From the NCBI RefSeq assembly GCF_003797775.2, contig NZ_CP060725.1, forward strand, positions 3,838,001 to 3,902,000: a stretch of 64,000 nt of DNA, given 5' to 3'. Below the pieces are notes generated by a model. The model saw only the letters and a program-made list of their open reading frames with translations. It did no database searches and was not told the DNA's origin. Shown one piece after another: positions 1-16,385 of this stretch (position 1 is its first letter; each line of letters opens with the position of its first letter). The translations under genes were made by a program, and so were the position numbers. The DNA comes from Sphingopyxis sp. OPL5 (GTDB lineage Bacteria > Pseudomonadota > Alphaproteobacteria > Sphingomonadales > Sphingomonadaceae).

Positions 1-209
1 CCATATCGATAATGGCCTTTGATATTGGCAGCAAGAAACTGTCCCTTCGATTCTGCTCTCTCAAAATCCTGACTTACTTGCGACGGGACATCGTAGTAAT
101 GATATGTACCACCATTGAGGAAAGTGACCTCCAAAGTCTGAGTTTCATCATCATACCGAATGCTTTGAATGTTCGAAGATTCAAACGCGCCAAATTGATG
201 CCAGCTCAT
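1..209 (-). CDS. KTSC-domain protein (partial, 3' end off window)
   Basis: Sixty-nine codons are visible before the window edge cuts the gene. The start ATG shares one base with the HerA stop (TAATG), so it is translationally coupled to the defence pair upstream. The protein begins MSWHQFGAFESSNIQSIRYD and continues with the pattern of the small KTSC domain: a hydrophobic strand, a Gly-Gly-Thr-Tyr-x-Tyr turn, Tyr-Asp-Val-Pro, then Ala-Glu-Ser-Lys-Gly and Asn-Ile-Lys-Gly near residues 52-65. KTSC domains are small domains of poorly known function, found alone or fused to other proteins. Its place as third gene of a SIR2-HerA operon suggests an accessory or regulatory part in defence; that is inference. 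It may simply be a passenger. Confidence 0.75.
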   Translation of the reverse strand, partial: MSWHQFGAFESSNIQSIRYDDETQTLEVTFLNGGTYHYYDVPSQVSQDFERAESKGQFLAANIKGHYRY

Positions 210-2110
210 TATTCATTCTCCTTGGATGCCTTGGGTATGACGGGGCTTTGCTGGCGCCACGCCAGCACAAACTCGTCATATTTTATATCTTTGGGTAGCG
301 GGATATTCCAGCCACCCGGCGCCATCGAATCCTCTGGCAGAACATCGTCGCAAACAATTGGGTCTTGGCTATCCGGACGCCGATCTTTCGGTGGAGCTTG
401 GATCATTGTCCTCATTGGGAGTCCGACGGCTTCGCCGAGTACAATCGCCTCGCCAGTCCGCAGGATAGGCAGCATATTAGTCAGCCCCTCCAGATTGTCT
501 GATAGCGTACCGGTCACATGAGACCGGTCCGTCCCATTGCTGAGCCTTAGCGCGAAGAAAGTGCCGCATTGAGAAAGAATGGTTGAATTGATTTCGGAGG
601 GGCGTTGACTCACGATCATAGCACCAATTCCGTACTTTCGTCCTTCCTTGACGATCCGCTGGACCACCGATGATGCAGCGCCGTCGAAATTATCATTCAG
701 ATAAGTGTGAGCTTCTTCCATCACAATGAGTAGCGGTCTTTCCCGCCCACCTTCCGACAGATTGCGTGCCCAAAACAACGCGTCGTAAAGAACCCGCAAC
801 ACGATGCCGATAATGTCATTCATCATCGATGCCGGTACGCCTGACAGATCGAGGATCGTTATCGGTTTGTCGCTACCCAACCATAGCTTCATCAGGTCGG
901 GCAGGTCTTTTTCAACTTTCCCGTCTAAATCGGGATGCCAGTCGCCAGCATTAAGGAGGAAATCGAAGCGGGAAACACGAATCTTGGAACCAAGATTCTC
1001 GACGGCCCCTCGAATATTATATCCATCCGGGATGTAATTTATCTTTTCGTCGTCAGATTTGATATTTTTTACTTTTTTGAACCGGGGAGGTCGGCCTATT
1101 TGAGCGTCTCCCATCATGGGTTTTTTAGCCGGGTCTAATTCATAGGCCCAGGTCTTCGGGTCTGATGCGTTCCCTTGCGCGCTATAATAAGTTCCAAATT
1201 CCGTACAGTAGAGGCTGTGCCAAAGCTTGTTCAGGGAGAATGGGATAGGGCTATCGGCACTAATATTATCATCGGTGACACCGGGCCTTTGATATGTTTT
1301 CAGTGTCTCGGCCTTTAGTTCGATCACCCGCTCCAAAATCATGTTTCTTGCTTTGCCATCTGCGGGCAGCGTTCCGAAAGTGACTTTGATAAGTTCGTCG
1401 AAGCTCATTGCCCAGAAGGGTATATGGAGCGGATGCTCATTGGCATTCCGGCTATCCGGGTTGATCTTGAAGATGTTTGCGCGGTCACCCAACGCGCGTG
1501 AATATTCCCCGTGAAGATCGAGAACGACAATGCGGGCCGATGGGAACCGGGTGCTGTCGGATAAAACGTTCAGCAAGCCCGCGACCGTGGTGGACTTTCC
1601 CGAACCGGTCGTGCCCACCACGGCGGAATGCCTAGTAACTAACTTGTTGATATCGACGAGCGCATCGATGGATTCACTCCCAGCAATATGCCCGATCCGG
1701 ACGAAATGATTTTGCTTTCCAGCCTTTCCGTAAATCGCCGCAAGGTCGTCTTCCGAGACCAAATGCACCTCGTCTTCGATGGTAGGATACTGTGAGATGC
1801 CGCGCTGGAACTTTCCAGTGCGATACCCTTCGCCAATTAGCTGCACGGTGATCCACTTATAGCCCGTAGGCATGGTTGCTGAGAGCGCTTCTGGAACAGC
1901 GCTAGCTCCCACCTGAGAAACGATTCCATATAGATCAAGATAACCAACCGGAATCTTGACGAAACTTCCAATCTGACCGATCCGATACCCTTGGCCGCTC
2001 ACAAAAGTGAGGCCTGAAAACTGATCAGCATTAAGGGTGACGCTGACCGACGTGCCGCTGACATCTTGAACTGTGCCGATGATGGTAGCGGTATGGATTG
2101 ACTTAGACAT
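209..2110 (-). CDS. HerA-like hexameric ATPase of SIR2-HerA defence system
   Basis: I place the start at the ATG reading MSKSIHTATI, giving 633 aa; it lies inside the end of the SIR2 gene (8-base overlap). An N-terminal HerA beta-barrel-like segment is followed by a P-loop, GTTGSGKSTT, at about residue 166, and a Walker B/catalytic stretch, LLIVMEEAH, at about residue 460. A conserved VSQRPSEI segment follows, as in the HerA/FtsK ATPase family. In known SIR2-HerA (Nezha-type) systems the ATPase forms a large ring complex with the SIR2 effector, and the pair depletes NAD+ or degrades nucleic acid upon phage infection. The overlapping order SIR2 then HerA matches those systems. The motifs look intact. 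Family assignment is secure; the defence role is inferred from gene pairing. Confidence 0.9.
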   Translation of the reverse strand: MSKSIHTATIIGTVQDVSGTSVSVTLNADQFSGLTFVSGQGYRIGQIGSFVKIPVGYLDLYGIVSQVGASAVPEALSATMPTGYKWITVQLIGEGYRTGKFQRGISQYPTIEDEVHLVSEDDLAAIYGKAGKQNHFVRIGHIAGSESIDALVDINKLVTRHSAVVGTTGSGKSTTVAGLLNVLSDSTRFPSARIVVLDLHGEYSRALGDRANIFKINPDSRNANEHPLHIPFWAMSFDELIKVTFGTLPADGKARNMILERVIELKAETLKTYQRPGVTDDNISADSPIPFSLNKLWHSLYCTEFGTYYSAQGNASDPKTWAYELDPAKKPMMGDAQIGRPPRFKKVKNIKSDDEKINYIPDGYNIRGAVENLGSKIRVSRFDFLLNAGDWHPDLDGKVEKDLPDLMKLWLGSDKPITILDLSGVPASMMNDIIGIVLRVLYDALFWARNLSEGGRERPLLIVMEEAHTYLNDNFDGAASSVVQRIVKEGRKYGIGAMIVSQRPSEINSTILSQCGTFFALRLSNGTDRSHVTGTLSDNLEGLTNMLPILRTGEAIVLGEAVGLPMRTMIQAPPKDRRPDSQDPIVCDDVLPEDSMAPGGWNIPLPKDIKYDEFVLAWRQQSPVIPKASKENE

Positions 2111-3308
2111 CATCGTTTTCCGAACCGACGGCAAGCCCCTTGAGCAGGTTTCCCAGAACAGCGAAATCTCCAAGCTTCAACTCACAAACCTGCGTCGAGG
2201 GGTCTGTGTTGATTACGCCTTCAGGAAGATCAAACGATGTTGGCTCATCCGTGCCTGTCCACAGGCCTTCAACGCGCCCGATGATGCCCTTGTCGAAGGC
2301 AAGCACGCTCAGGTTTGGCGTAGAGAGCCCGCATTCTTTCGCTTGGGCATATTGCGAGCTGTCTAATGGTCCAAAAAGAAATGCAAAAACGTGCGCGGTT
2401 GGATTAGTCTCAAGGCTACGGCAAATTATGTCATTTATGTGCTCGTCCCCGAAGGAATATCCAGAAAGAAAAAGCAGAGATGAGGGATTTAATAAGAACG
2501 CCTTTAGACGATCCAGCATAGCCAGATATGGCATTTTCCGGCTCTGGTCATACTTTAGATGTGAAGGATAAATCAGATACGATTCCGTATCAGATTTCTG
2601 GTCGCTTCGAACGACGCTTTTGCCGTCTTGCAAACGCCAGTTCAAGGAACCATGAATCTTCCAGAGGCGGGTCCACCGTGCGGGTAAAATGTTTTCATCT
2701 TCGACTGCTCCCAAGTCGAAAAACGCCTTTCGAGAGCCAATGAATCCATCAAAGTATGGCGCGGAGCTTTCCTCGAGAGATTGCTCAGCTAAAAGGTCGT
2801 AGTTGGTGGTAAAAACGTGGACTGGCTTTTCACGTTTGACCGAACGGGTCCAAACCGCGAGATTATGATAGGCTGATTTTCTATCTGGCAGAGGCTTATT
2901 GACCTCTTCTGAAATGATCCGGCAGATTTTTTCATCTAACTCGCGGAGTTCATCCGCCTTCATGCCCCGCACTACGCCTTTTCCAGCGACACTTTGAAGC
3001 GAACGAATTTGGCTTAAAAGGAACTCGATGTTCTTTTCATTGCCCCCATCTTCCTTGGCGATTGCAATAATTCTGTCCCAACTTGATGGCGCGACAGGGT
3101 CAGCGTTTGCCAGTTTCTTGTGGATGATTGCGGTGAGACCGGCGACGTCCGGGATGAGTGGGTCGCTGAGCGTTTTGTCGCCTTCAACCCTTATATTCAC
3201 TCGCACCGACAACGGGCACCCCGCGCCAATGAAGAACCCTATCTGCTTCCTATTTTGGGAAAGGGACTGCTGAATAAAGCCAACTTGGCGAATAGCGTCG
3301 TGTTGCAT
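2103..3308 (-). CDS. SIR2-family NADase effector of SIR2-HerA defence system
   Basis: This 401-aa protein has the SIR2-like Rossmann-fold signatures: FFIGAGCPLSVR at residues 25-36 (the Gly-Ala-Gly NAD-binding loop), FTTNYD at 166-171, the catalytic histidine in WKIHGSLNW at about 219, and LSGYSFGDEHIND at 281-293. SIR2 proteins of this type cleave NAD+ as toxic effectors in several anti-phage systems. The ATG is preceded by a GAGGTG ribosome-binding site. The downstream HerA ATPase starts inside the last codons, which is the arrangement of the SIR2-HerA two-gene system. No transmembrane segment or fused sensor domain is visible, so sensing is expected to lie in the SIR2-HerA complex itself. 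Confidence 0.9.
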   Translation of the reverse strand: MQHDAIRQVGFIQQSLSQNRKQIGFFIGAGCPLSVRVNIRVEGDKTLSDPLIPDVAGLTAIIHKKLANADPVAPSSWDRIIAIAKEDGGNEKNIEFLLSQIRSLQSVAGKGVVRGMKADELRELDEKICRIISEEVNKPLPDRKSAYHNLAVWTRSVKREKPVHVFTTNYDLLAEQSLEESSAPYFDGFIGSRKAFFDLGAVEDENILPARWTRLWKIHGSLNWRLQDGKSVVRSDQKSDTESYLIYPSHLKYDQSRKMPYLAMLDRLKAFLLNPSSLLFLSGYSFGDEHINDIICRSLETNPTAHVFAFLFGPLDSSQYAQAKECGLSTPNLSVLAFDKGIIGRVEGLWTGTDEPTSFDLPEGVINTDPSTQVCELKLGDFAVLGNLLKGLAVGSENDDV

Positions 3309-3469
3309 GGCACCTCTACATAGCTTGATACTGCTGTAGCGCGCATGATGAGCGTCGCCCCCTTTGTCATCTTATACAAGTCACGGTCCTTACGTCCATC
3401 GCCGACAAATCCAGAATGGGGGCCATGGAAAGTCTGGCGGCTCAAACCTCGACCGCCGCTGAGACAGCC

Positions 3470-6283
3470 CTAATCTGCGCCTTCCAGTGGCGGCGTGTAG
3501 GAAACCTTCGCTTTTGCGTCCCAGCCAGTGGCCGTCTGCCGCTCCCAATCATGGGCCTCTTTACCGATATGTTCGATACCGCAAATGAGAACGTGCCGTC
3601 GCTTCGTTATCCCGCTATCGAAATAGTCCCCGTTCAAAAATTTCAATTCCGGCGAGAGGTGATAGGTCGCAAGCGCTTCGGCATATGTCGCGAGCGCAGA
3701 TGCGGTGATCGGATTGCCGGTTTCACGATCAAAGGCGAGCTGGATTGCGCGGTAATGTTCTTTATCGAACGGGGCAACCGGCCTGATCGGCAATCGTTTG
3801 CGCGGCCTTCCCCGCTTTGGCGCGGTATCGATTTGCTCGCCACCCGCGAAATCGAACGCAGCGCGAAGCGCAAGCAAGAAGCCGAACGGTTTTACCCGCT
3901 CGCGGTATGACCGTCCTTCGTTATAGCCCTTGAACCAGCGTAACAGGTTAGGTGATGTCGCAGCATAGCGGCTGACCGTCGGCTGATTAAGCGCCGGATG
4001 ATAGTCGAGGGCAACCCGATCAGGGTGTCCCGCCAAAGTGGCTCGAACGATCTGGTGCCATAAATCGCAATGCCACCGCGCGGTGCCATATCGAAGAACG
4101 GACGGGTGCGGGATCGGGAAGCCCGCTGGGGCATTCGCATCGTCGTATGGTTCACGCAAATGCCCGAGGCCGTGCGCCGATATCTTGCGCATGGTCGGCG
4201 TGCCGATCGCCGTCAGGTTGAAAAGTGCATAGCGCTTCGACGAAATGGCGAGGCAATAGAGTGGCTCCAGCCCGCCGCCATCAAGGCCGTCATTTACATC
4301 CTCGATCTTGAGGATCGATCCGCCAAACTCATACGGGTTGAGCGGCTCGAACCAATCGACGATCGATCGGACGCGGGCGGTGAAATCGTCGCCTTCCAGA
4401 TCATCGGGTTTAGCAAAGGCCATGCTATCGGTGTCGCAAAAGCTCCAATCAAGGCCCGCATCCGCCGCGAGCCTTTCTGCGATGGCGAGCATCAACCGTG
4501 CCGCACCAGTAATCAGCGTGGCGAGCAGCGGGTGGAAATAGCTCCCCGGCATTTCAGCCTTATCGGTATTGAGCGTGAATTGCTCGGCAGTCGAATTGAA
4601 GATCGTCACTGATCGAGGTTCCGGCCGATCCTCGACATTGACCTCGACCCAAATTCCGTAGCTGGTCGAGTTGGCGCAAATTTTGAGAGCGTTTTGTTCG
4701 ATGTCGAGCCGGTCGCACTCTTCCGGCGGCGCCGCCTTCATCTGGCGTTTGGTCGCTTGCCGCAGTTCAATGACGCGTTTGAAGAAATCATCCTTGTAGG
4801 GATCGACGCGGTACGCTGGGTTTCCGGCAATATTGATCGGCTGGAATCCCTCCTGCGGCAGCCCCGCTTCGAACGCCATCGCTTCCACAATCTCCGGCGC
4901 TTTTCGGGTGGCCAGCTTTGCTGCAATGCAATCCGCCAAAGTGAACCACATAGGGTGCGGCGAGGTAAGGAAATTTGCACCAATTGTTGGCTGGCCCTCG
5001 CCGCAATAGTCGGCCCTAACCGGAAATATGTCGGCGTCGGGTTTGACCCGGACGATCATATTGAGCGCCGACCAGGTGCGCGGTGACCGCAACGCATCGA
5101 GATCAATACTATCGAGAAGGTCGCGGGCTTCGTCGGTCGCATCGCGCCATGTCATGCCGTCGGCGATGACAAACTGCCAAAGGTTCATGAGCGTACAGAC
5201 GGTGGGATACATCGACAGGAAATCGCAGAGCATCACTTGCCGGATTTCGCGGCGGATGCGGACCTCCGATCGCCCCCCATAGTATGTGCCCATAACGTTG
5301 CCGATGAGCTGGGCGGGAAATTCCGGTTGGGCTTTACGCCACGGCGTGACGCCAATCTGTTTGAGATAGGCTTTGCCGATGCCCGCCTCGCTGTAGATTT
5401 TTTCCGGAATGCTGCGGTCGAGCTTCAAATCGACAAATCGGGCCATCAATTCGGCAAAGCATTCCCAACTCGCTTGGGTATCGCGCACGGCATATGTCAG
5501 GATATCATCGGTAATAGGTCCGTCGAAATCCTCAAAATCCAACTTGGGATTAGGAATTTCGAGGAATTGCGAAAGGCTTTTCAGCGAAAAAGACTTTGCA
5601 AAGAGCGCCGCTGCTAGCGTTTTGAGATCGATGAAATGGCCGCGTCGGACGGGCGATTTCATACCGCGACGCCGTTGTCCCCGTGAATCCGGATTGCCCA
5701 TTGGTGCAGCAAAGGAAATGAGAGCGGCCTTCGCACCCATATGCTTCACGCGAACGTTCGGGAAAATCTTCTGGCGCGAGAGTGTGAAGGTGAAGCCGCC
5801 GCGCATGGGATGCGTGTCGGCATCGATCGGCGCCCGTGCCGAGCCGTGCCTGATCGAAAGGCGCGAGATGTCGAACGGCAGATTGAAGCCGATGATTGTC
5901 GCATTGAGCTGATAGGCTCGCCGGAAGAATATCTCGTCCACAAAGCTGTCACGGTCGCGAAGCGTCAGCTCCTCGCGATCGGCGAATGCGGTCATGACCT
6001 CCAGTTCGGCGCCAGTTATACCGTCGGGATCGTAGAATATCCCGCTTTCGCGAAGCTCCCCCTCTTTTCGCAATTGATAGGTGCCAAACCGGAGCGCCTG
6101 AGCCGCGTCGGTCGTTGTTTCACTGTCAAAGGTCAGTGACCATTTCGACGCGGGCAAAAGGCCTTTGCGGCGGCGTTTTGGCTTGGCGCTTTCATCGGGA
6201 ATGATCCGCCATGTCGGCGTGGCATAAGCTCGAATGGCAACCGGAAGTTCATCGGTGATAGCGGGGAGATCGAGCGCGCTCAT
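3470..6283 (-). CDS. Family-B DNA polymerase with 3'-5' exonuclease (casposon-like replicase)
   Basis: A 937-aa protein carries every family-B landmark in order. Exo I is FDSETT (D53, E55), Exo II FNLPFD (N134, D138), Exo III YAVRD (Y264, D268), motif A CDFLSMYPT (D354), motif B KICANSTSYG (K534), motif C FCDTDS (D617, D619) and a KRY element at about 683. Both exonuclease and polymerase centres therefore look intact. Motif B has one residue more than the usual Kx3NSxYG spacing. Sphingomonads do not normally use a second family-B replicase, and this gene sits with an HNH nuclease gene (4-base overlap) and a solo cas1, as in casposons, where PolB replicates the element. Whether priming is by RNA, protein or none cannot be read here. 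A plasmid or phage polymerase is the alternative origin. Confidence 0.9.
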   Translation of the reverse strand: MSALDLPAITDELPVAIRAYATPTWRIIPDESAKPKRRRKGLLPASKWSLTFDSETTTDAAQALRFGTYQLRKEGELRESGIFYDPDGITGAELEVMTAFADREELTLRDRDSFVDEIFFRRAYQLNATIIGFNLPFDISRLSIRHGSARAPIDADTHPMRGGFTFTLSRQKIFPNVRVKHMGAKAALISFAAPMGNPDSRGQRRRGMKSPVRRGHFIDLKTLAAALFAKSFSLKSLSQFLEIPNPKLDFEDFDGPITDDILTYAVRDTQASWECFAELMARFVDLKLDRSIPEKIYSEAGIGKAYLKQIGVTPWRKAQPEFPAQLIGNVMGTYYGGRSEVRIRREIRQVMLCDFLSMYPTVCTLMNLWQFVIADGMTWRDATDEARDLLDSIDLDALRSPRTWSALNMIVRVKPDADIFPVRADYCGEGQPTIGANFLTSPHPMWFTLADCIAAKLATRKAPEIVEAMAFEAGLPQEGFQPINIAGNPAYRVDPYKDDFFKRVIELRQATKRQMKAAPPEECDRLDIEQNALKICANSTSYGIWVEVNVEDRPEPRSVTIFNSTAEQFTLNTDKAEMPGSYFHPLLATLITGAARLMLAIAERLAADAGLDWSFCDTDSMAFAKPDDLEGDDFTARVRSIVDWFEPLNPYEFGGSILKIEDVNDGLDGGGLEPLYCLAISSKRYALFNLTAIGTPTMRKISAHGLGHLREPYDDANAPAGFPIPHPSVLRYGTARWHCDLWHQIVRATLAGHPDRVALDYHPALNQPTVSRYAATSPNLLRWFKGYNEGRSYRERVKPFGFLLALRAAFDFAGGEQIDTAPKRGRPRKRLPIRPVAPFDKEHYRAIQLAFDRETGNPITASALATYAEALATYHLSPELKFLNGDYFDSGITKRRHVLICGIEHIGKEAHDWERQTATGWDAKAKVSYTPPLEGAD

Positions 6284-6642
6284 TTCGCGGCCTCCCCGAC
6301 ATCATCCGACTTTCCTTCAATGAGTATCAGGCCGAATTCATAGAGACGGCGCACAATGACCCGCAGCATGTCGGCGAGCCCCAGCAGGAAATAGCCGATC
6401 GCAGCCATTGGGCTATTGGCGTCCCGATCAAACGCTGGGTGGTCGCGCTGATCGTCGCTCATGATCCGATGACAATTGGCGCAAAGGATCACCGTCAAAT
6501 CATCATGCTTGCGGCCCGCAACATGATGCAATTCCAAGGTGCAATCATTGCCTTCGCCGCACATCCCGCAATGGGGATCCTCGGTCCCTAGCTTTTCGAA
6601 CCGCTTTTGCTGGCGGCGATCTCGTTCAAATTTATCAGTCAT
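6280..6642 (-). CDS. HNH endonuclease
   Basis: A 120-aa protein has the HNH core LELHHVAGRKHDDL, then VILCANCHRIM, at about residues 36-65. Two Cys-x-x-Cys pairs (CGMC near 24-27 and CANC near 57-60) probably hold a structural zinc. The stop overlaps the PolB start (ATGA), so the two are co-translated. HNH nucleases are frequent companions of PolB and Cas1 in casposons. After the HNH core there is an unusual 35-residue hydrophobic or amphipathic stretch (from MAAIGYFLLG) that ordinary small HNH proteins lack; it could be a protein contact or a membrane-leaning helix. The DNA target is unknown. Confidence 0.85.
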   Translation of the reverse strand: MTDKFERDRRQQKRFEKLGTEDPHCGMCGEGNDCTLELHHVAGRKHDDLTVILCANCHRIMSDDQRDHPAFDRDANSPMAAIGYFLLGLADMLRVIVRRLYEFGLILIEGKSDDVGEAAK

Positions 6643-6654
6643 GGTATTCTCCTT

Positions 6655-7230
6655 TCAAGAAACTAGGCGGTAAACTTGGTGGAATAGTTCGTTCCCCGAC
6701 TGCGACGCGGCGAGCCGGTGGAGCGTGTTCGGACGGGTTTCGAAGGGGTGGGCTTTGCCCTTGGCGTCGATCACCGATCGACCGACGAAGGGGGCGATCA
6801 GGTCGTAATCATTGAGCCGCAGAAAGGTGCGGACAGCGCTGAGATAATCGCCGTTAAGTGATGACTCTTCCCACCCGATAATCTTGATTTTGTAGACTTC
6901 GCCGCCGCTGATGGTCGTCATCTCGCGAAGCCGCTTGTCGGTGAAAGTCCATGCTCGGCCCTCGCGCTTGGCGAGGCCCAGTTCGCGGATGTACCGGCGT
7001 AGCCGTTCGGGCGCGATACGATGGGATTTGGCGGCGGTGGTCAGCGCGCCCGACTGGCGCATGTCGCTAAGCGCCGCCTCTAGGCGGGTCGTATCTATAG
7101 TCGGTTTGGGGCGAAGTGCCGCCTCGCCGGGACGGGCGTGGCCGCGAGCTTGTGATCGGCTTAGTCCCCGCTTTTTCGCGTTCGCCAACCGGCGTTTATA
7201 TTCGCTGCGATAGTTTCTTTTCTGTGCCAT
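6655..7230 (-). CDS. Unrecognised protein of casposon-like cluster
   Basis: I choose the start reading MAQKRNYRSEYKRR (191 aa) because the longer frame would run into the divergent gene at 7301. The N-terminal 40 residues are strongly basic and suit nucleic-acid binding. A middle segment (about residues 45-100) looks like a helix-turn-helix, with ALTTAAKSHRIAPERLRRYI. The C-terminal half contains GGEVYKIKIIGWE and a segment ending in the pattern FVGRSVIDAKGK. I do not recognise a named family. It is 12 bases upstream of the HNH gene and reads into it, so it belongs to the HNH-PolB transcription unit. A DNA-binding or regulatory job within the element is plausible but unproven. Confidence 0.65.
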   Translation of the reverse strand: MAQKRNYRSEYKRRLANAKKRGLSRSQARGHARPGEAALRPKPTIDTTRLEAALSDMRQSGALTTAAKSHRIAPERLRRYIRELGLAKREGRAWTFTDKRLREMTTISGGEVYKIKIIGWEESSLNGDYLSAVRTFLRLNDYDLIAPFVGRSVIDAKGKAHPFETRPNTLHRLAASQSGNELFHQVYRLVS

Positions 7231-7300
7231 GCCTCGCTGGTGACGTGACTCCCCGAGTCCGTTCTCGCGAATCCGGACGCATCTGTGCGATAGTGCGGAA

Positions 7301-8230
7301 ATGACCAATCAAGAGCTGGCAGATCATTTGAATGAAGCCGTTGGGTTGACTGGCAAGGAAGCCGTCACCGTCAATGTTGTGCGACAGTGGGTAGGTTGGG
7401 ACGTGCTGCCGAAGGCCCAGCCGATCGGCCAGGCCTTCGGTAAGGCGCCGGAATGGGCGCGGCAGGATACAGGCCTGGAGCGGGCCGTTCGATTATCCGA
7501 GCTCCGAAAGCTTGGCATCCGCCGCAAGAATGCTGTGGTCGCTCAGGCCTATTTCGAATGGGGACACCCTGATTTCGAATTGGCACGCGAGGCAGTCGTC
7601 AGTGAATTTATTAAATGGCGTGAGCAGCTGAATCGCCGCCAGACGACAACCTTGGGTGGAAAGAATTTCCAAGAAGTCAGCAGTGCGAAAAAGCGGGCAA
7701 TCAAAACCCAACTTGGTCCGCTCGATCAGCGATTTGTTGATGCGCCGTTTGAGCAGGCCCCAGAATTGTACGCATTGTTTGCGGACGCTGCTCGTACAGG
7801 GCAGGTCGAAGCCTCTCAAATCGCCGCATTGCTGGCGGAAGGTCTGGAAAAAATCGATCCGAAAATTGCTAATCTTATGCCGCGGAAAGACTTACTCGCA
7901 TTTGCTTCCGCGACGGCAGGTTTGACCGGTTATCAAGATGAAATCGCGAATTCAGGCGAAGAGACCCTCATAAATGCGGCAGCGGAGCAATTTGAGAAGG
8001 CACGCCAATTAAATAAAATAATGACCAACATTTCGATACCGCCCGACGTTGAAGCCGTCGCGGCCCAAACGGCCAAAAATCTTCAAAATTTGATCGACAT
8101 TAGAATGCAATTGCATTCCCAAATATCAATCGGACCTTGGGCAATTTTTCAGTTTGCCGGAATTCTACATTCAATCGTGAACGATCCCAATTTTGGACAA
8201 AAACTCACTGATTTTGCGCGAATTTGCTGA
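7301..8230 (+). CDS. Unrecognised protein upstream of cas1, possible N-terminal HTH
   Basis: A 309-aa protein starts at an ATG with a GCGGAA sequence just upstream. Residues 1-45 read like a helix-turn-helix that ends in a wing (MTNQELADHLNEAVG, then VNVVRQWVGWDVLPK). The remainder is largely helical, with a charged middle and a C-terminus ending in a hydrophobic stretch around IGPWAIFQFAGILHSIV. No enzymatic motif is visible and I do not recognise the family. It is divergent from the HNH-PolB unit, with 70 bases between, and ends 31 bases before cas1, so it is likely co-transcribed with cas1. An accessory factor for Cas1 or a regulator of the element are the simplest guesses. Confidence 0.6.
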   Translation: MTNQELADHLNEAVGLTGKEAVTVNVVRQWVGWDVLPKAQPIGQAFGKAPEWARQDTGLERAVRLSELRKLGIRRKNAVVAQAYFEWGHPDFELAREAVVSEFIKWREQLNRRQTTTLGGKNFQEVSSAKKRAIKTQLGPLDQRFVDAPFEQAPELYALFADAARTGQVEASQIAALLAEGLEKIDPKIANLMPRKDLLAFASATAGLTGYQDEIANSGEETLINAAAEQFEKARQLNKIMTNISIPPDVEAVAAQTAKNLQNLIDIRMQLHSQISIGPWAIFQFAGILHSIVNDPNFGQKLTDFARIC

Positions 8231-8261
8231 CATTTCCCCGGCGATTTCGCTATAGAACAAT

Positions 8262-9329
8262 ATGCTTTTAGAAACGCAATTTGAGCAATCGGAAATGGCC
8301 GACGAATGGGCAATTCGTTCCGATAATTGGATCGCCGAATTAGGGAAATTGCAAAAGCCGAGACGGCTTCGCGAGCGAAATCCCAATGCACTGATATTGA
8401 CCGGCCACGGCAATAGCCTTCGCGTCGAGAATGGCTCCCTTATTATCAAACAAGGCTTTACCCATTATCCCCAAAAGCAGGAATGCCACCGCCTTCTCAA
8501 AGGCGATTTGGATTTGCCGCGCATCATAATGCTATTGGACGGAAGCGGCTCACTGTCCTTTGATGTTTTGGATTGGCTGTCAGAGCAATCCATTGCTCTC
8601 GCCCGTATCAAAGGGTCCGGCGACGTGGCGATCGTCGCCAGCGGAAATGGATTTGCGAGCGACCAATCCAAGATAGATTGGCAGCGAGAAACGCTTGCAT
8701 GCCCAGTTCGACGCATGGCGTTCGTGCAAGAGCTTATTCAATCGAAGCTGACGAATAGCCTGGAGACGCTTTCCGGTCATTTGCCTAGGCACGCGGACAC
8801 AGACGCCGCGATTGCAGGGGCCAAGCGCGGGATCACAGCACTCGATCGGCCTCTCCACGATATGCAGCAGGTGCGAGCGATCGAAGGCGAATGCGCATCC
8901 CTCTATTTTCGCGCTTGGCGCAATTTGCGCCCGCAATGGAAAATCTCGAAACGATATCCGGTCCCGGAAAGCTGGCTGACATATCGGGGCCGCAGCTCGG
9001 TTCACGAATGTAAACCCGAAAATCGCCGCGCTACCGATCCGATCAATGCCATGCTGAATTACGGCTACGCCGTGATGCATAGCAAATTGCAGATCAAAGC
9101 CGTCGCCGATGGCTACAGTCCGCTTCTCGGGATCATGCACCGGCAAAAGCGATCGAGCGCGAGCTACATTCTCGACATGCTAGAGCCCGAACGCCCGCGC
9201 GTGGACGCGGCAATTTTGGACTTTGTGCAATCCCGCACCTTTTCGGGCGCGGATTTCATACTGCGGAAAGACGGCGCTTGCCGACTGTCCCCGCAACTGG
9301 CGCGGGTTGTGGCGGCATTGATAATTTAG
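8262..9329 (+). CDS. cas1: Solo Cas1 endonuclease/integrase (casposase-like)
   Basis: The 355-aa product (or 343 aa from the internal ATG at 8298) has the Cas1 layout. An N-terminal beta domain contains LLDGSGSLSFDVLDWLSEQ (about 91-109). The helical domain has AIEGECASLYF (E208), DPINAMLNYGYAVM (259-272), LLGIMH (H293) and ILDMLEPERP (D305, E308). E208, H293 and D305/E308 correspond to the metal-binding Glu/His/Asp set of Cas1, so the enzyme appears active. There is no cas2, no effector gene and no CRISPR array in the window. A family-B polymerase and an HNH gene lie beside it. Such solo Cas1 proteins are the integrases of casposons. A stray CRISPR relic is possible but does not explain the polymerase. 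Confidence 0.88.
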   Translation: MLLETQFEQSEMADEWAIRSDNWIAELGKLQKPRRLRERNPNALILTGHGNSLRVENGSLIIKQGFTHYPQKQECHRLLKGDLDLPRIIMLLDGSGSLSFDVLDWLSEQSIALARIKGSGDVAIVASGNGFASDQSKIDWQRETLACPVRRMAFVQELIQSKLTNSLETLSGHLPRHADTDAAIAGAKRGITALDRPLHDMQQVRAIEGECASLYFRAWRNLRPQWKISKRYPVPESWLTYRGRSSVHECKPENRRATDPINAMLNYGYAVMHSKLQIKAVADGYSPLLGIMHRQKRSSASYILDMLEPERPRVDAAILDFVQSRTFSGADFILRKDGACRLSPQLARVVAALII

Positions 9330-9586
9330 TCTCGCTTTTTCCTTCCGGGGCGAAGGCCGCTCAAATTCTCATCGTCCCTAATCGGTAGGAAAAATTCGAG
9401 AACACCGACATTCAAAATAGCCGCGATCTTATCGAGCGTATCGACGCTCGGATTTTCGTCGAAGCGCTCGATGCCTCCCAAATAAGAGCGGTCCACGCTG
9501 GCGTCGAACGCCAGCCGTTCTTGAGACACGCCTCTTTCGACGCGAATCCGCCTGATATTTTTCCCAACAAGTTCGCGGCCGCGCAT
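9326..9586 (-). CDS. XRE-family transcriptional regulator
   Basis: An 86-aa protein is almost wholly a Cro/CI-type helix-turn-helix: VGKNIRRIRVERGVSQERLA (residues 7-26) then DRSYLGGIERFDENPSVDTL and an IAAILNVGVLEFF helix. It has a short basic tail, GRKKRD. Its end overlaps the end of cas1 by 4 bases in convergent orientation, so it belongs to the same compact gene block. It reads away from a small secreted-protein gene, with a perfect 12-bp palindrome in the shared upstream region, suggesting autoregulation and control of that neighbour. It could also govern element expression. Confidence 0.85.
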   Translation of the reverse strand: MRGRELVGKNIRRIRVERGVSQERLAFDASVDRSYLGGIERFDENPSVDTLDKIAAILNVGVLEFFLPIRDDENLSGLRPGRKKRD

Positions 9587-9623
9587 GATCCGACAAAGCC
9601 GAAGATGCAGGGCATAAAACCAC

Positions 9624-9635
9624 TGGATATATCCA
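9624..9635. promoter_or_regulatory. Palindrome, possible operator of the XRE regulator
   Basis: TGGATATATCCA is a perfect 12-bp palindrome in the 99-base gap between the divergent XRE gene (start 9586) and the secreted-protein gene (start 9686). Size and position fit an operator of a small XRE dimer. The link to the regulator is inference. Confidence 0.4.
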
Positions 9636-9685
9636 TCATATTAAGATTTGCGCGGTATCTTTGCCATGAAATTTGGAGGAAGATT

Positions 9686-10054
9686 ATGCGCTTTTTCGCC
9701 CGTCTCATGCTGTCTGCTTTCGCGCTTGGCGCCACATCAGTTCAGGCCGCCGAACCAACCTTCGATCTCATCTGCCGGGGATTGAGCGGGCAGAAGCTAC
9801 ATTATCGATTCGACCTCGCGCAGAAGAAGTGGTGCATCGACCAATGCCAATCTGTCTGGGGGATTGATCGGCTTAGCGACAGCATGATTGAACTAGTTAC
9901 GTTTAGCAGCGACGGCCAAAACGATTGGACGATAAAGATCGATCGTTACACCGGCGCATTTGCGGCGATACGCCGAGGCTTCGGGAGTGAACCAAAAGAC
10001 ACTGGCGCATGCGAGGCAAAGACCTTTTCGGGGTTTCCCGGGAAGAAGTTCTAG
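9686..10054 (+). CDS. Small secreted protein of unknown function
   Basis: The start follows a strong GGAGGA site and gives 122 aa. Residues 1-22 form a signal peptide (MRFFARLMLSAFALGATSVQ, cleavage probably after Ala-Ala), so the mature protein is periplasmic. It has four cysteines (30, 50, 54 and 109), which could form two disulfides; WCIDQC holds two of them. Similar small exported proteins of unknown function are common in sphingomonads; I cannot name a family. It diverges from the XRE gene and may be under its control. Whether it belongs to the mobile element or to the flanking island is unclear. Confidence 0.7.
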   Translation: MRFFARLMLSAFALGATSVQAAEPTFDLICRGLSGQKLHYRFDLAQKKWCIDQCQSVWGIDRLSDSMIELVTFSSDGQNDWTIKIDRYTGAFAAIRRGFGSEPKDTGACEAKTFSGFPGKKF

Positions 10055-10279
10055 GCGGGGAGCATAGATTCAACGTTCGCCACATCAACCGTTGAGCAGC
10101 GGAAAGCTAACACCACCGGTGGCTGGCAACCGATGTTCGGTGCTGCCCTCCCACAAAGAACGATAGGCAGCGCTACGACGTTATTTCGGTCATCGCCAAT
10201 CGTCCGAGCAAGATGCTCAGATATTTAGGTCTTATCAGCTTTTACCTTGCAACATGTCTCGGTACGATTGGAGGTTGCC

Positions 10280-11956
10280 ATGTCGAAAGAGATGGTTCTC
10301 AGGGATATGGCAGCCGCCGGGATACCCGCCGCCCAATACATTCGCATGTCGACCGAGCATCAGCGATATTCGCCTGACAACCAAAAAGCCGTTATCGCAG
10401 CATACGCCCTTGATAGGGGCTTTGATATTGTCGAAACTTACCAAGATAGCGGGAAGAGCGGCCTAACGCTCAAGGGGCGGGACGAGCTGAAGAGGCTGCT
10501 TAGCGATGTCATCAGCGGCGAGGCGAACTATGGGGCGATTCTGGTTCTAGACGTGAGCCGATGGGGGCGGTTCCAGGATACGGATCAAGCCGCCCATTAT
10601 GAATTTATGTGCCGCGCGGCGGGCGTTTCCATCCACTACTGTGCCGAACCCTTCGATTCCGAAGGTGGCATGGTCGCCTCGATCGTCAAGCACATGAAGC
10701 GGGTTATGGCTGCGGAATACAGTCGCGAACTGTCCTCGAAGATTGCGCGGGCACAGCGACTACAGGCGCGGTTAGGTTTCAAACAGGGCACCGCTCCACC
10801 TTATGGGCTTCGGCGGCAAGTTATCGACGAGAATGGCGTTCCTCGATTCGTCCTTAAGACTGGCGAACGCAAGGCACTCGCGACCGATAAAGTCGTCTTT
10901 GTTCGCGGTCCCGATCACGAAGCAGAAATAATTGCGCAAGTTTTCTACAATTTCGTGAGAAAGCGGATGAATCTTGGGCAGATTGCAGATTGGCTGAACC
11001 AGCAAGGCGAACGCCACCCCAACGGCAACCTTTGGCACACGCAGCCCGTTCGCACTCTTCTGACCAACCAGCTGTATATCGGCTATTACGTGTTCGGCAG
11101 AACGAGGAACAACCTACAGAAGAATGAGCCCAGAGCCAAGGATACCGACTTCAGCCGCGTCCGCGTCGTCGATCCCATCATCCCCGAAAAGCTGTTCGAC
11201 GCTGCTCAACGGCGGTTGGCGCTGGTGACACGTCGGCATTGGTCGACTCAAGAAATTCACGCCGGGCTTCAAAAATTGCTAAAGGCGGAGGGGCGGCTAT
11301 CTTATGATCTTATCGAGGTGTGCCCCTATCTCCCGCGAGCATGTGTCGTGTCCGATCGCTTCGGCGGTCTCGGAAAGGCGTTTCAAACAGTTGGGTATGA
11401 AATCCCGCCGCGTGTCCGCAAAAATCGAAACGGATTGCCCTATACGGACGAAGAGTTGTTGGAGGAGCTTCTTAGGATTTACCGTGGGCACGGCTACATT
11501 TCGCGCCACCTGATCGACCTGGACCCAGAATGCCCGACTGGGAGATACTACATTCGGCGGTTCGGCGGTCTGATACCAGCTTTTCGTCTGGCAGGCATCG
11601 ACGCGGACGCCAACTCGCAGCGACGGGCAGCCACTGCGCGCAGACATGCATTTCAGGATGCCAACGGATTGCCTAAGGCGCGTCCGCCAAAAAGGGGAGT
11701 GCCCGATGCAGAGATGATCGATGGGCTGCGGAGGCTCTTGGCAACGCACGGCTACCTATCAATGCAATTGATAAATGCCGATCCTGATCTTCCCGCTGTC
11801 GGAACAATAGCGCGGAGGTTTGGTGGTCTGGTTTCGATATATGAGCAGGTCGGCTATTCGAGCAGTCGAAGCGAGATTATGCGGGCTGCGCGGAAGCGCC
11901 TTGGTATGCCTGTCTTGGCTATTCAGCGAGGTCGCAGTCCGAAGAGGAAAGGGTAG
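10280..11956 (+). CDS. Large serine recombinase with three C-terminal repeats
   Basis: I start at the ATG preceded by GGAGG (558 aa, MSKEMVLRDM). The resolvase domain covers about residues 14-155, with catalytic serine in AQYIRMSTEHQRYS, LVLDVSRWGRF, and an AAEYSRELSSKI arm. A recombinase domain follows (GTAPPYGLRR; IADWLNQQGE; TNQLYIGYYVFGR). Instead of an obvious zinc ribbon, the C-terminus has three repeats of about 50-75 residues spacing, each of the form LL-x-G-Y/R-L/I-S then a proline-rich turn then RFGGL and G-Y/I. They recall the homing-endonuclease-associated repeat. Large serine recombinases integrate or excise phages and islands, so this gene probably moves all or part of the island. 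Attachment sites were not identified. Confidence 0.88.
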   Translation: MSKEMVLRDMAAAGIPAAQYIRMSTEHQRYSPDNQKAVIAAYALDRGFDIVETYQDSGKSGLTLKGRDELKRLLSDVISGEANYGAILVLDVSRWGRFQDTDQAAHYEFMCRAAGVSIHYCAEPFDSEGGMVASIVKHMKRVMAAEYSRELSSKIARAQRLQARLGFKQGTAPPYGLRRQVIDENGVPRFVLKTGERKALATDKVVFVRGPDHEAEIIAQVFYNFVRKRMNLGQIADWLNQQGERHPNGNLWHTQPVRTLLTNQLYIGYYVFGRTRNNLQKNEPRAKDTDFSRVRVVDPIIPEKLFDAAQRRLALVTRRHWSTQEIHAGLQKLLKAEGRLSYDLIEVCPYLPRACVVSDRFGGLGKAFQTVGYEIPPRVRKNRNGLPYTDEELLEELLRIYRGHGYISRHLIDLDPECPTGRYYIRRFGGLIPAFRLAGIDADANSQRRAATARRHAFQDANGLPKARPPKRGVPDAEMIDGLRRLLATHGYLSMQLINADPDLPAVGTIARRFGGLVSIYEQVGYSSSRSEIMRAARKRLGMPVLAIQRGRSPKRKG

Positions 11957-12004
11957 CGCTTGCGTCGGCGCTTTCATGCAATTTTTGCTAGCGATCACTA
12001 TACC

Positions 12005-12023
12005 CCCCGGACTTGATCCGGGG
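12005..12023. repeat. Alphaproteobacterial REP-like palindrome
   Basis: CCCCGGACTTGATCCGGGG is a short near-perfect palindrome of a type scattered through intergenic regions of alphaproteobacteria. It lies just after the recombinase gene, within a 233-base gap before the SMI1/KNR4-like gene, and may act as a bidirectional terminator. That role is inference. Confidence 0.5.
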
Positions 12024-13174: not shown

Positions 13175-13249
13175 CCGCGCGGAGAAGCCAGCCCGTCGCC
13201 GACCCTCCGCGGGCGCCGGAATGGCCTCTCACGACCGGTTGCGGAAATG

Positions 13250-13397
13250 AATCCTCCCTGCGGCGCAGCCGTGGGGAGGGGGACCGCCGCGTAGCGGTGG
13301 TGGAGGGGCCGCGGCGTTGCGCCAGCCTTTGACGGCGTCGGCCCCTCCGTCAGCGCTACGCGCTGCCACCTCCCCATCGCTGCGCGACAGGGAGGAG
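13250..13397. repeat. Large imperfect inverted repeat in intergenic gap
   Basis: The 326-base gap between the GFA gene and the next gene (13175-13500) holds no convincing gene. It contains two mirror-related arms, about 13250-13310 and 13338-13397. Each combines a GGGGAGG/CCTCCCC box, a GTAGCG/CGCTAC box and a GGAGGGGCC/GGCCCCTCC box. The result would be a long stem-loop in RNA or DNA. Such elements recur in sphingomonad genomes. Confidence 0.6.
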
Positions 13398-13500
13398 TGG
13401 CAACGTCCGTTCCCCACCTCATTCCGGTCACCCGGTTCGAACCCAGCCAAAATGGCCGGTAACGACCGATTGCGGACTTTGTGACATCCTATAGAAGAAT

Positions 13501-13915: not shown

Positions 13916-14093
13916 ATCGGCATCGGAATCCGATCGCCCCGATCCGCGCCACCCGCCACGACCCGCATTTCCCGATCCCGGTATCGAACATCCGGCAAAA
14001 CAACGTCCAACCGAACCGATTTATGCGCCAAACCGTGGTCCCCGCGCACATTGTGTGTTTTCTATGCAACAGGTTTGTCGTAACGAGGCAACA

Positions 14094-16385
14094 ATGGCGA
14101 ACGGCGTTACGGTAACCGGCGAAGCGCAACCCGAAGGGCAGGGGGCCCGTTCGCGCATCTGGACCTTTGCCGCGCCCGAATATTACACGCTGGCCCTCAT
14201 CCTCAGCGTCGGCATCGCCACCTATGTCTTCGTTACCGGCGACGCGCAGAGCGAACGGTTGCTCACGCCGGGGCTGGTCGCCGTGATCATGGTCGTCAAC
14301 CTCGTTCCCGCGATGGCGCTGATCGTGCTCATCGGCAGCCGCGTGGCGCGCGCGCGCGCGATGCGCTCGATGGCGGGCGGTACCGGGCGTCTCCACGTCC
14401 GGCTCGTCGCGCTCTTTTCGCTGATCGCCGCGACGCCGACGATGCTCGTCGTGATCTTCGCCTCGCTGCTCTTCCAGTTCGGGGTCGATTTCTGGTTTTC
14501 CGACCGCTCGCGCGGCATGTTCGAAAATGCGGCTGGTCTCGCCGAGGGCTATTATCAGGAAAACCAGCGCGAGGTCGTCGCGAACACGATGAAGATGGCG
14601 GGCGATCTCGGCGATATCCTGGCCCGGTTTCCGATCGATGGTCCCGATTTTGCCGATTATTATCTGCAACAGGTCGTCGTCCGGAACCTCAATGAATCGG
14701 CGATCATCGAGATCGGTCCCGATGGCGTCGCGCGTACGGCGGCGATGATCGATCCCGATAATCGCGATGCCGAAGCGCGCATTTCGCCGTCGATCGTCGC
14801 GCGGCTCGACAATGGCGAGGATGTCATCGTCAGCCGCCAGTCCGACCGGATCGAAGCGGTCACCAAATTGCCGCGGCGATCGCGCGCCTATCTCTATGCG
14901 TCGCGCGATGCCAATGTTCTGGGCTTTCAGCAGTCGCAGCGCGCGAGCACCGTGCTCGCCGACTATAATGCCCTGTTCAAACGTTCGCAGCAGCTCCAGC
15001 TCCAGTTCAACGGCGCGCTCTATCTCGGCGCGCTGCTCCTGCTCGCGCTCGCCGTGATCGCGGCGATCGTCGTCGCCGACCGCATCGTCCGCCCGCTCGG
15101 CACGCTCGTCGGGGCGACGCGTACCGCCGCCGGCGGCGACCTGTCGGTGCGGGTGACGCCGACCGCACACGACGACGAGATTTCGGTCCTCGCCCATGCC
15201 TTCAACCGCATGACCGAACAGATTCAGGGTCAGACCGGCGCGCTGCTCAGCGCCAACGAGCAGATCGAGGCGCGCCGAAGCTTCATCGAAGCGGTGCTCA
15301 GCGGCGTCTCCTCGGCGGTCGTCTCGGTCGACGCCGGCCATCACATCCTGCTTGCCAACGCCGCCGCCGAGCGATTGATCGGGACCCCCGCCGACCAGCT
15401 CACCGGACGCCCGCTCGAACAGGTCGCGCCCGAACTCGCGCGCCTGATCACCGGCGACGAGCGCGAGGCGGTGGTCCAGCTCGCGCGCCGCGAGGGCGAG
15501 CCCGCGACGCTCGCCGCCAAGGCGGTCGCGCAGGGCGACGGCTTCGTCCTCAGCTTCGAGGATATCACCCAGCAATTGCTCGACCAGCGCCGCGCCGCCT
15601 GGTCCGACGTCGCGCGCCGCATCGCGCACGAGATCAAGAATCCGCTCACCCCGATCCAGCTCGCCGCCGAACGCCTCCAGCGCCGCTTCGGCGACAAGGT
15701 CGAGGGCGACCAGGCGACCTTCCGCAAGCTCACCGACACCGTGATCCGCCAGGTCCACGACATGCGGCGCATGGTCGACGAATTCTCCAGCTTCGCGCGC
15801 ATGCCCAAGCCGACCTTCGGGGTCGAGGATATCCGCGACATATTGAAACAGGCGGTGTTCCTGTTCGAGGTCGCCAAGCCCGACATCGCCTTCAGCGTCA
15901 CCGTCCCGAACGATATCGAGCCCTTGGTGTGCGACCGCCGCTTGCTGTCCCAAGCGCTGACCAATATCGTCAAGAACGCGGTTGAAGCCATTGAAGAAAA
16001 TGTAAAAAATCCCGAAACTTCACCGATCGGCCACATTCGTGCGATCCTCGATATGGGCAATGATCGTGAAGTTGTGATCCGCATCGCCGACGACGGCATC
16101 GGCCTCCCCGAAGCCCGCGACACGATCGCCGAACCCTATATGACGACGCGCCAGGGCGGCACCGGACTCGGCCTCGCGATCGTCAAGAAAATTGTCGAGC
16201 AGCATTATGGCGAACTCGATTTTTCCGACAATCCGGCAGGAAAGGGGACATGCGTGACGCTCACGCTTCATCCCGACCGCCTCCGCCCGCTCGCCGGGCG
16301 CGGCGCCGATACGACAACAGGGCAGGCCGAATCGGTCCCGGGCCGTTCCCGGAACCGACAGGATAGAGAAGATCATGGCGCTTGA
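14094..16385 (+). CDS. ntrY: Nitrogen-regulation sensor histidine kinase NtrY
   Basis: I prefer the ATG reading MANGVTVTGE, with GAGG six bases upstream (763 aa). It has three transmembrane helices near residues 28-120, a periplasmic or extracytoplasmic sensor region, another membrane helix at about 300-330, HAMP, PAS, a HisKA domain with RRIAHEIKNPLTP (H512), and a HATPase domain with N box IVKNAVEA and G boxes DDGIGLP and GGTGLGLAI. NtrY with NtrX responds to nitrogen or redox state in alphaproteobacteria. Its end overlaps ntrX by 11 bases, so the pair is co-translated. No ntrB/ntrC pair is seen in front of it, unlike the ntrBC-ntrYX order of many rhizobia. Confidence 0.93.
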   Translation: MANGVTVTGEAQPEGQGARSRIWTFAAPEYYTLALILSVGIATYVFVTGDAQSERLLTPGLVAVIMVVNLVPAMALIVLIGSRVARARAMRSMAGGTGRLHVRLVALFSLIAATPTMLVVIFASLLFQFGVDFWFSDRSRGMFENAAGLAEGYYQENQREVVANTMKMAGDLGDILARFPIDGPDFADYYLQQVVVRNLNESAIIEIGPDGVARTAAMIDPDNRDAEARISPSIVARLDNGEDVIVSRQSDRIEAVTKLPRRSRAYLYASRDANVLGFQQSQRASTVLADYNALFKRSQQLQLQFNGALYLGALLLLALAVIAAIVVADRIVRPLGTLVGATRTAAGGDLSVRVTPTAHDDEISVLAHAFNRMTEQIQGQTGALLSANEQIEARRSFIEAVLSGVSSAVVSVDAGHHILLANAAAERLIGTPADQLTGRPLEQVAPELARLITGDEREAVVQLARREGEPATLAAKAVAQGDGFVLSFEDITQQLLDQRRAAWSDVARRIAHEIKNPLTPIQLAAERLQRRFGDKVEGDQATFRKLTDTVIRQVHDMRRMVDEFSSFARMPKPTFGVEDIRDILKQAVFLFEVAKPDIAFSVTVPNDIEPLVCDRRLLSQALTNIVKNAVEAIEENVKNPETSPIGHIRAILDMGNDREVVIRIADDGIGLPEARDTIAEPYMTTRQGGTGLGLAIVKKIVEQHYGELDFSDNPAGKGTCVTLTLHPDRLRPLAGRGADTTTGQAESVPGRSRNRQDREDHGA

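Follow-up and report, generated by a model that had tools for sequence, protein, structure and literature searches.

Which kind of element does a stand-alone Cas1 belong to when it is encoded next to a family-B DNA polymerase (PolB) and an HNH endonuclease? This question is raised by a stretch of 64,000 nucleotides from Sphingopyxis sp. OPL5 (NCBI RefSeq assembly GCF_003797775.2, contig NZ_CP060725.1, positions 3,838,001 to 3,902,000), termed the window here. Casposons, which are the proposed source of the adaptation machinery of CRISPR (clustered regularly interspaced short palindromic repeats) systems, are an obvious candidate. An earlier note had interpreted the genes at positions 3470-9586, about 6 kb encoding PolB, HNH, an intact Cas1, an XRE regulator and two unnamed proteins, as such an element or its relative. 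All six genes are indeed located there, however the block is only the middle of a unit about twice as long, an element of 13,150 bp (G000:C1:3836857-3850006, its ends taken as GGGG...). We report here its ends, its target and its relatives, and conclude that it is very probably a bacterial casposon, a DNA transposon that would use the stand-alone Cas1 as its integrase.

Ends and insertion site of the OPL5 element

The left end of the element lies 1,144 bp upstream of the first base of the window, and the right end at window position 12006. The inverted ends read GGGGTATAGTGAT. The pattern CCGGGGGGTATAGTGAT, searched with up to two mismatches, has two matches only in the OPL5 genome, and these are both element ends (G000:C1:3836853-3836869 on the plus strand and 3849994-3850010 on the minus strand); the reversed pattern, used as control, had none. 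Thus, the search for inverted repeats that the earlier note had proposed recovers terminal inverted repeats together with a 15-bp target duplication. The location of the left end outside the window explains why self-comparison of the first 16 kb of the window did not reveal terminal repeats. The inward inverted repeat at the island borders was first seen by comparing the block-carrying loci L019 and L034-L041. The GC content per kb is 0.49-0.58 over window positions 1-12000, compared to 0.60-0.74 beyond.

Both ends could be mapped in nine elements, those of OPL5, L019, L034, L035, L036, L038, L040, L041 and G770 (L162 and L037), and counts out of nine refer to these. Outside these counts stand L039, a cas1 remnant lacking the core, and L043, L165, L175, L176 and L177, which reach contig ends; L163 was counted as a locus without ends. 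In an unbiased search, a direct repeat of 15 bp with at least 14 identities had to lie next to an inward inverted repeat of 14 nt with at least 12 identities. It yielded a single match in 8 of 10 loci, at the previously located ends or a few bases off, and no match in any of the ten reversed-flank controls. L040 falls below the threshold of this search because its duplication is 14 bp long. The duplication is exact over 15 bp in seven of the nine elements. In L019, which has a longer G run on the left, 14 of 15 bases agree. In elements with GC-rich targets the exact borders vary with the number of G assigned to the end; the G770 duplication, GGCTTCAAGAAACAA, has no G-run ambiguity beyond its flanking bases. 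The two ends of eight elements agree at 22-32 of 40 nt, while 20,000 random pairs have a mean of 10.2 and a maximum of 24, a maximum that L038 (22), OPL5 (24) and L040 (24) do not exceed by end identity alone. A TGACC box, located ~34 nt inward of the tip, occurs at both ends in L019, L034, L040 and L041 (4/9 elements) and at one end in L035; it was not found at the ends of the OPL5 element, L036 and L038.

The OPL5 element splits one copy of a dispersed repeat that resembles repetitive extragenic palindromes (REP-like). With the right flank and its hairpin as query, this repeat has 22 places in the OPL5 genome, including the insertion site. Of the 21 other copies 19 were fetched. Over 29 nt with up to 4 mismatches, each of the 19 continues across the hairpin, and all but one start with CGTCACCCCG like the left flank, though the query had no left half. 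By our reading of the neighboring proteins, the genes that flank the site are ntrC (L042) and ntrY (window 14055-16385). Within the genus, 58 relatives have an ntrC match, and 29 loci were read. The stretch from the ntrC end to the ntrY probe is 56-114 bp in 23 of them, so that the comparison with relatives, likewise proposed before, finds the block absent from this site. It is about 1.0-1.1 kb in two further loci; three have no ntrY within the fetched stretch and one was left unplaced. For L019, which lies beside polA, an empty site was not found at base level, and the genus search for that of L036 covered one genome. A different dispersed repeat of about 150-190 bp is located at window positions ~13231-13421, with several more copies in the OPL5 genome and many in the genus.

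Stand-alone Cas1 and the shared core

Clustering of all 533 open reading frames (ORFs) of at least 60 amino acids from the nine elements shows that Cas1, PolB, HNH and a protein termed U217 are common to 9/9 elements, and no other family is; the remaining wide clusters we interpret as overlapping frames of core genes. The stand-alone Cas1 is the only candidate integrase in this common set, and we infer that it performs the integration. Among the 12 PDB sequences matched by the Cas1 family profile, entry 6OPM was the best; it scored 96.9 bits across almost the entire length, while the 11 others reached at most 66.6 bits. E208, H293 and E308, which we take to be the catalytic residues, are invariant among 24 homologues; in the alignment, 6OPM has E, H and E at these positions. 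This structure is the M. mazei casposase, so named by the depositing paper (PMC6977970). In the corrected tree, the Cas1 proteins of the elements and of metagenomes form one clade (100/100) that joins 6OPM at 88/87, apart from 13 Cas1 proteins of other Sphingomonadales and from 8D3L. The phylogeny asked for in the earlier note therefore places the protein outside the sampled CRISPR Cas1s, a reference set that is small. Both trees were built without L015 (no ORF above 230 amino acids at the position used), L016 (stop), L041 (two frames) and L043 (contig end). An AU test on the corrected tree that constrained 13 of the 14 family members together with CRISPR_L005 carries little information, as this grouping is arbitrary. 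The position is consistent with a casposase clade and is not proof of it, because the tree holds one casposase and the support is moderate.

The genomic context points in the same direction. A CRISPR-like array, defined as three exact copies of an 18-mer at array spacing, was detected neither in 81 kb around the OPL5 element, in agreement with the initial impression that CRISPR repeats are missing, nor in 10 element loci, whereas an array-like repeat lies no farther than about 1.5 kb away in 12 of the 15 reference Cas1 loci. There is no second Cas1 in the OPL5 genome at E <= 0.001. Cas2 was not detected among ten window proteins scanned with Pfam, and no genome-wide cas2 search was made; nine window proteins searched with PADLOC include no other Cas protein.

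Hairpin targets, competing explanations and a possible mechanism

The rebuilt target folds as a hairpin in eight of the nine elements, with the hairpin centre at most one base from the middle of the duplication. When one mismatch is allowed, the stem measures 7-11 bp in seven elements, and equally long stems occur in 0-111 of 5,000 random windows drawn from the same loci. The automatic stem score of L040, 5 bp (594/5,000 random windows), is understated because the 15-bp frame is off by one base where 14 fits, and the folding energy of this site is below that of all 300 random windows. For six other hairpin sites, the folding energy is matched by 0-8 of 300 random windows. Stem length and folding energy were used in place of a pair-count score, which performed poorly and was reached by 215 (OPL5), 120 (L034), 171 (L035) and 166 (L040) of 1,500 random windows. 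The longer G run of L019 required manual placement of its site in both tests. By eye, the L036 target resembles a terminator, a hairpin flanked by runs of A and T. A further arrangement was observed at L175:10870-10963 (G837), where two casposon ends (10908 and 10925) point away from each other and are separated by a single target-like unit of 16 nt; the contig stops within the second element. This suggests a tandem insertion, repeated at one site; repeated insertion at one site has been reviewed for Methanosarcina (PMC9939771).

The ends, the 15-bp duplication, the tree and the relatives without the block support the earlier proposal of a bacterial casposon in an alphaproteobacterium. Several observations weigh against it or against its generality. 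The two ends of the OPL5 element agree at 24 of 40 bases, as many as in the top-scoring pair among 20,000 random ones. L163 holds the core genes, and ends were not found in the 20 kb read. About 2 kb of extra DNA lies between the OPL5 element and ntrY, therefore the short ntrC-ntrY gap of the relatives is not a clean empty site. Folding of the OPL5 site is equalled by 34 of 300 random windows, so that this site alone is not striking, and the G770 target has no hairpin (stem 3,506/5,000; folding 296/300). In the tree, the link to 6OPM at 88/87 is under the star threshold and depends on one casposase. 4N06, named as a CRISPR-associated Cas1, is placed next to the pair of the Cas1 clade and 6OPM (82/77). 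A first tree, in which two rows were in the wrong frame, had 6OPM on the CRISPR side. Finally, a large serine recombinase is encoded toward one end of 4/9 elements, in OPL5, L019:11896-15290, L035:1532-4889 and L040:4228-7621.

This enzyme leads to the first rival explanation, that the island was moved by the serine recombinase and the Cas1-PolB block is its cargo. The gene is full-length and almost touches the right end of the OPL5 element, and in three of the four elements that encode it, it is adjoined by two RepB/ParB-like genes. As mover it was rejected, since the 5/9 elements that lack the gene have the same kind of ends and duplication. Moreover, serine integrases leave short att cores and not 15-bp duplications with inverted ends. 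We consider this explanation very unlikely, and the recombinase may instead act in cointegrate resolution or be a captured element. An equally slim chance is left to the idea that Cas1, PolB and HNH constitute a defence or memory system riding an unrelated transposon. Neighboring genes often match anti-phage models, which would fit such a system, however no further gene family is common to the nine elements, arrays were not found in the stretches read, and the ends and the duplication length fit the products of a casposase (14-15 bp; PMC6614799). That the locus is a decayed CRISPR-Cas system can practically be dismissed, since beyond the identity of the protein as a Cas1 it has to cope with the missing arrays (81 kb here and 10 element loci), the separate Cas1 clade and the lack of further Cas proteins among the nine window proteins searched with PADLOC.

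If a casposon is accepted, its integration may be envisaged along the lines of published casposases. Cas1 would bind both element ends and join the 3' ends to the two target strands about 15 bp apart, and repair of the joined target would create the 15-bp duplication. PolB and HNH may be involved in copying or excision, and the HTH-like (helix-turn-helix-like) proteins in target choice or regulation. Judging from the sites, the target would mostly be a short GC-rich inverted repeat, REP-like or terminator-like, that is cut symmetrically about its centre; such a cut would leave the hairpin core at both ends after insertion. Site symmetry would replace a one-sided leader motif. It is an evenly balanced question whether this amounts to a casposon lineage with a hairpin-selecting integrase, in which the duplicated 15-bp unit is mostly a palindrome core, much like many CRISPR repeats, and can be shared by two insertions that lie back to back, as in L175. 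A partial precedent for hairpin recognition exists, because the A. boonei enzyme recognizes the T-psi-C arm palindrome at its site, according to a review (PMC9939771). Archaeal casposons are described with targets at tRNA and EF-2 ends, and ten of the 2014 set are intergenic (PMC4046053). Among the titles and abstract openings listed for casposon papers, none describes a hairpin-targeting casposon, a scope that does not extend to the target of HenMar-C1.

Gene content, distribution and known casposons

The features of the OPL5 element and the cargo of its relatives are compiled in Table 1.

Table 1. Features of the OPL5 element and cargo genes of related elements. Plain numbers are window positions.
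Feature	Position	Strand	Remarks
Probable casposon, part within window	1..12006	.	left end at G000:C1:3836857
Target site duplication, left copy	G000:C1:3836842-3836856		
HerA-type ATPase, cargo	209..2173	-	PADLOC HerA PDLC04105, 531 bits; Pfam DUF87
SIR2-like protein, cargo	2103..3308	-	PADLOC SIR2 PDLC04094, 436 bits
PolB, family-B DNA polymerase	3470..6283	-	PF00136; in 9/9 elements
HNH endonuclease	6280..6642	-	PHROG HNH families; in 9/9 elements
U217, HTH-like core protein (predicted)	6655..7230 (probable start)	-	ORF caller start 7308 (217 amino acids); in 9/9 elements
U309	7301..8230	+	309 amino acids, mostly helical; slot before cas1; 3/9 elements
Cas1, casposase-like putative integrase	8262..9329	+	Pfam PF01867, 6.2e-33
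XRE-type regulator	9326..9586	-	HTH_3; 4/9 elements (L019: two frames)
Large serine recombinase	10247..11956	+	Resolvase and Recombinase domains; 50 bp from right end
Right terminal inverted repeat	11982..12006	-	first 25 nt; inward reading GGGGTATAGTGATCGCTAGCAAAAA
Target site duplication, right copy, CCGGACTTGATCCGG	12007..12021	.	15 bp exact; core of hairpin 12005-12023
PD-(D/E)XK-like protein	L042:15951-16988		just upstream of window; weak Pfam match, 18.4 bits, cut-off 27
PtuA (Septu) and DNA methylase, cargo	L019		
IetA-like ATPase with DUF6414, cargo	L034		
Type IIG restriction enzyme, cargo	L036		
PADLOC candidate PDC-S01, cargo	L038		
PADLOC candidate PDC-S60, cargo	L037 (G770)		partial match

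The core proteins differ in how readily they are recognized. PolB matches PF00136 with 24.4 bits, narrowly above the gathering cut-off of 23. The columns which we take to be its exonuclease and polymerase motifs are invariant among 10 relatives, and these relatives match PF00136 in 8/10 and PF03175 in 5/10 cases, all weakly (E <= 1). A comparison with PDB gave no match at 0.001 and weak archaeal and alpha-polymerase matches up to 10. The HNH protein has no match in Pfam. Of the eight PHROG families that it hits at E <= 0.01, seven bear the name HNH endonuclease, and the best hit has 3e-5; identity of the HNH protein in G770 is 25.5%. Homologues indicate that U217 probably starts at 7230 and has 191 amino acids. 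Three homologues were scanned, of which two match HTH_17 just under the cut-off and one HTH_8 under the cut-off. The structural model (predicted local distance difference test, pLDDT, 83.4) has an HTH-like helical part, helices 47-84, plus a sheet, and U217 is predicted to be an HTH-like DNA-binding protein. U309 is modelled (pLDDT 87.9) with an HTH-like N-terminus followed by helices; a Foldseek search found no match at E <= 0.001 and weak MerR-type matches. In elements without U309, other proteins take the slot before cas1. The DNA likeness of the XRE gene in L019, L035 and L041 reaches about 58-75 bp upstream of its start. The XRE gene is followed by a small protein (window 9684-10054) with a start that looks like a signal peptide by eye. 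The enclosing frame, 9521-10054, has no Pfam match; the small protein clusters with ORFs of 4 other elements, to which the overlap with the XRE gene on the opposite strand may contribute.

Besides this core, the elements carry variable cargo. In OPL5 the SIR2-like protein is likely the partner of HerA, and the two likely constitute an anti-phage gene pair, although against the NCBIfam models HerA reaches 235 bits (anti-phage HerA, cut-off 850) and the SIR2-like protein 78 bits (SIR2_antiphage, cut-off 500). A PADLOC search of ten proteins from the elements matched six; L042:15951, L034:3541, L038:5171 and L035:12998 had no PADLOC match. A gene matching a PADLOC anti-phage model occurs in 6/9 elements, a count made with the other genes of L040 and the L041 pair outside the search. 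L041 holds relatives of the L034 pair, and the cargo of L035 is a Na+/H+ antiporter with a sigma factor.

The family is rare in the sampled genomes; counts include OPL5 where it was searched, and the order, class and phylum samples overlap. Cas1 of this family is present in 5/396 genomes of the order, in 4/385 of the class (one partial copy) and in 6/398 of the phylum, all six from that class, and PolB in 6/298 genomes of the family. A protein search returned 985 proteins at E <= 0.001, and the best 120 of these 985 are all at least 52% identical. The end motif with the TGACC box occurs in 6/277 genomes of the family, with none in the control, and OPL5 is not among the six because its element has no TGACC box. 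Four of the six genomes (G853, G879, G883 and G081) have PolB and G837 has cas1 on the same contig, thus the ends track the Cas1 block; the G880 motif is located 1.4 kb away from the end of its contig, and no core gene was found in the 20 kb read. The PolB-positive genome G874 has no end-motif match on its 7.3 kb contig.

Among viral contigs the Cas1 alignment found no relative, and phage records hold one distant Cas1 (24.6%). In the best 40 of 55 plasmid records, the annotated matches are called cas1 and share 23-30% identity, and one unannotated Bradyrhizobium fragment has 42.6% over a third of the query. The end pattern located a Cas1 relative (35%) and a casposon end beside a terminator-like hairpin at L174:1-1125 (IMGVR_UViG_3300012268_000167), whose neighbors we take to resemble structural genes of phages or gene-transfer agents. 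Two loci show decay. A lone C-terminal cas1 piece at L039:9883-10329 (G557), with the rest of the block not found in the 20 kb read, is apparently a casposon relic. L041:13487-14511 is a decayed casposon with cas1 matches in two frames, and three near-identical copies of an IS4/5-type transposase lie inside this element, at 6422, 14615 and 16477.

The host class is not new, because an alphaproteobacterial casposon, HenMar-C1, has been in print since 2014 (PMC4046053). Hence, of the earlier claim of a casposon in an alphaproteobacterium the casposon stands and the novelty of the host does not; what is new is where the elements insert, what they carry and how many there are. The 2014 paper describes four bacterial casposons (PMC4046053), and here nine casposons with both ends mapped are added from alphaproteobacteria. 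HenMar-C1, NitAL212-C1, StrAlb-C1 and AceAut-C1 belong to casposon family 3 (PMC4046053). Since most of the targets fold as hairpins and it is their core that is duplicated, it becomes directly testable whether Cas1 reads a symmetric sequence or a cruciform shape. Hairpin-sited insertion also offers a natural comparison for the writing of CRISPR memory. Should a hairpin-selecting lineage exist, it would be a living model for the path from a casposon target to the palindromic CRISPR repeat, and its elements would also carry anti-phage systems between hosts. A HerA-like gene in AceAut-C1, Sir2-like genes in three casposons and methylases have been reported, and the 2014 paper treated them chiefly under replication, chromatin or DNA modification (PMC4046053). 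The cargo described here (HerA with SIR2, Septu PtuA, IetA-like and type IIG) suggests that the earlier HerA and Sir2 genes serve defence, and not replication or chromatin.

By gene content, the OPL5 element is nearest to casposon family 3. Shared traits are bacterial hosts including an alphaproteobacterium, PolB, HNH, an HTH or HTH-like protein, terminal inverted repeats and target site duplications, and with HenMar-C1 also a solo Cas1 without extra domains. The published core comprises five genes including two HTH proteins, and the duplications have a median of 15 and a range of 1-27 (PMC4046053). Family 3 is also characterized by a PolB that derives from PolB3-like enzymes of family 2 and by a conserved HTH protein common to both families. 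In contrast to family 3, the nine elements are mostly located at hairpins, and that of OPL5 carries HerA and SIR2 as a pair. The 2014 set is described as lacking serine and tyrosine recombinases (a descriptive trait; PMC4046053), whereas 4/9 elements here have a large serine recombinase and 5/9 do not. With family 2 and the A. boonei and M. mazei casposases, the OPL5 element shares Cas1 homology, with 6OPM as best solved relative. The A. boonei casposase joins terminal inverted repeat ends to the target and produces a duplication of 14-15 bp (PMC6614799). However, both archaeal enzymes have a C-terminal HTH, while the Cas1 domain of OPL5 ends at most 4 residues from the C-terminus, and they insert at tRNA gene ends and need an upstream motif (PMC6614799, PMC6977970), while the targets described here are mostly symmetric. 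In their choice of site, the elements resemble REP-targeting insertion sequences, which insert into repetitive extragenic palindromes (PMC1525189); those are insertion sequences and not Cas1 elements.

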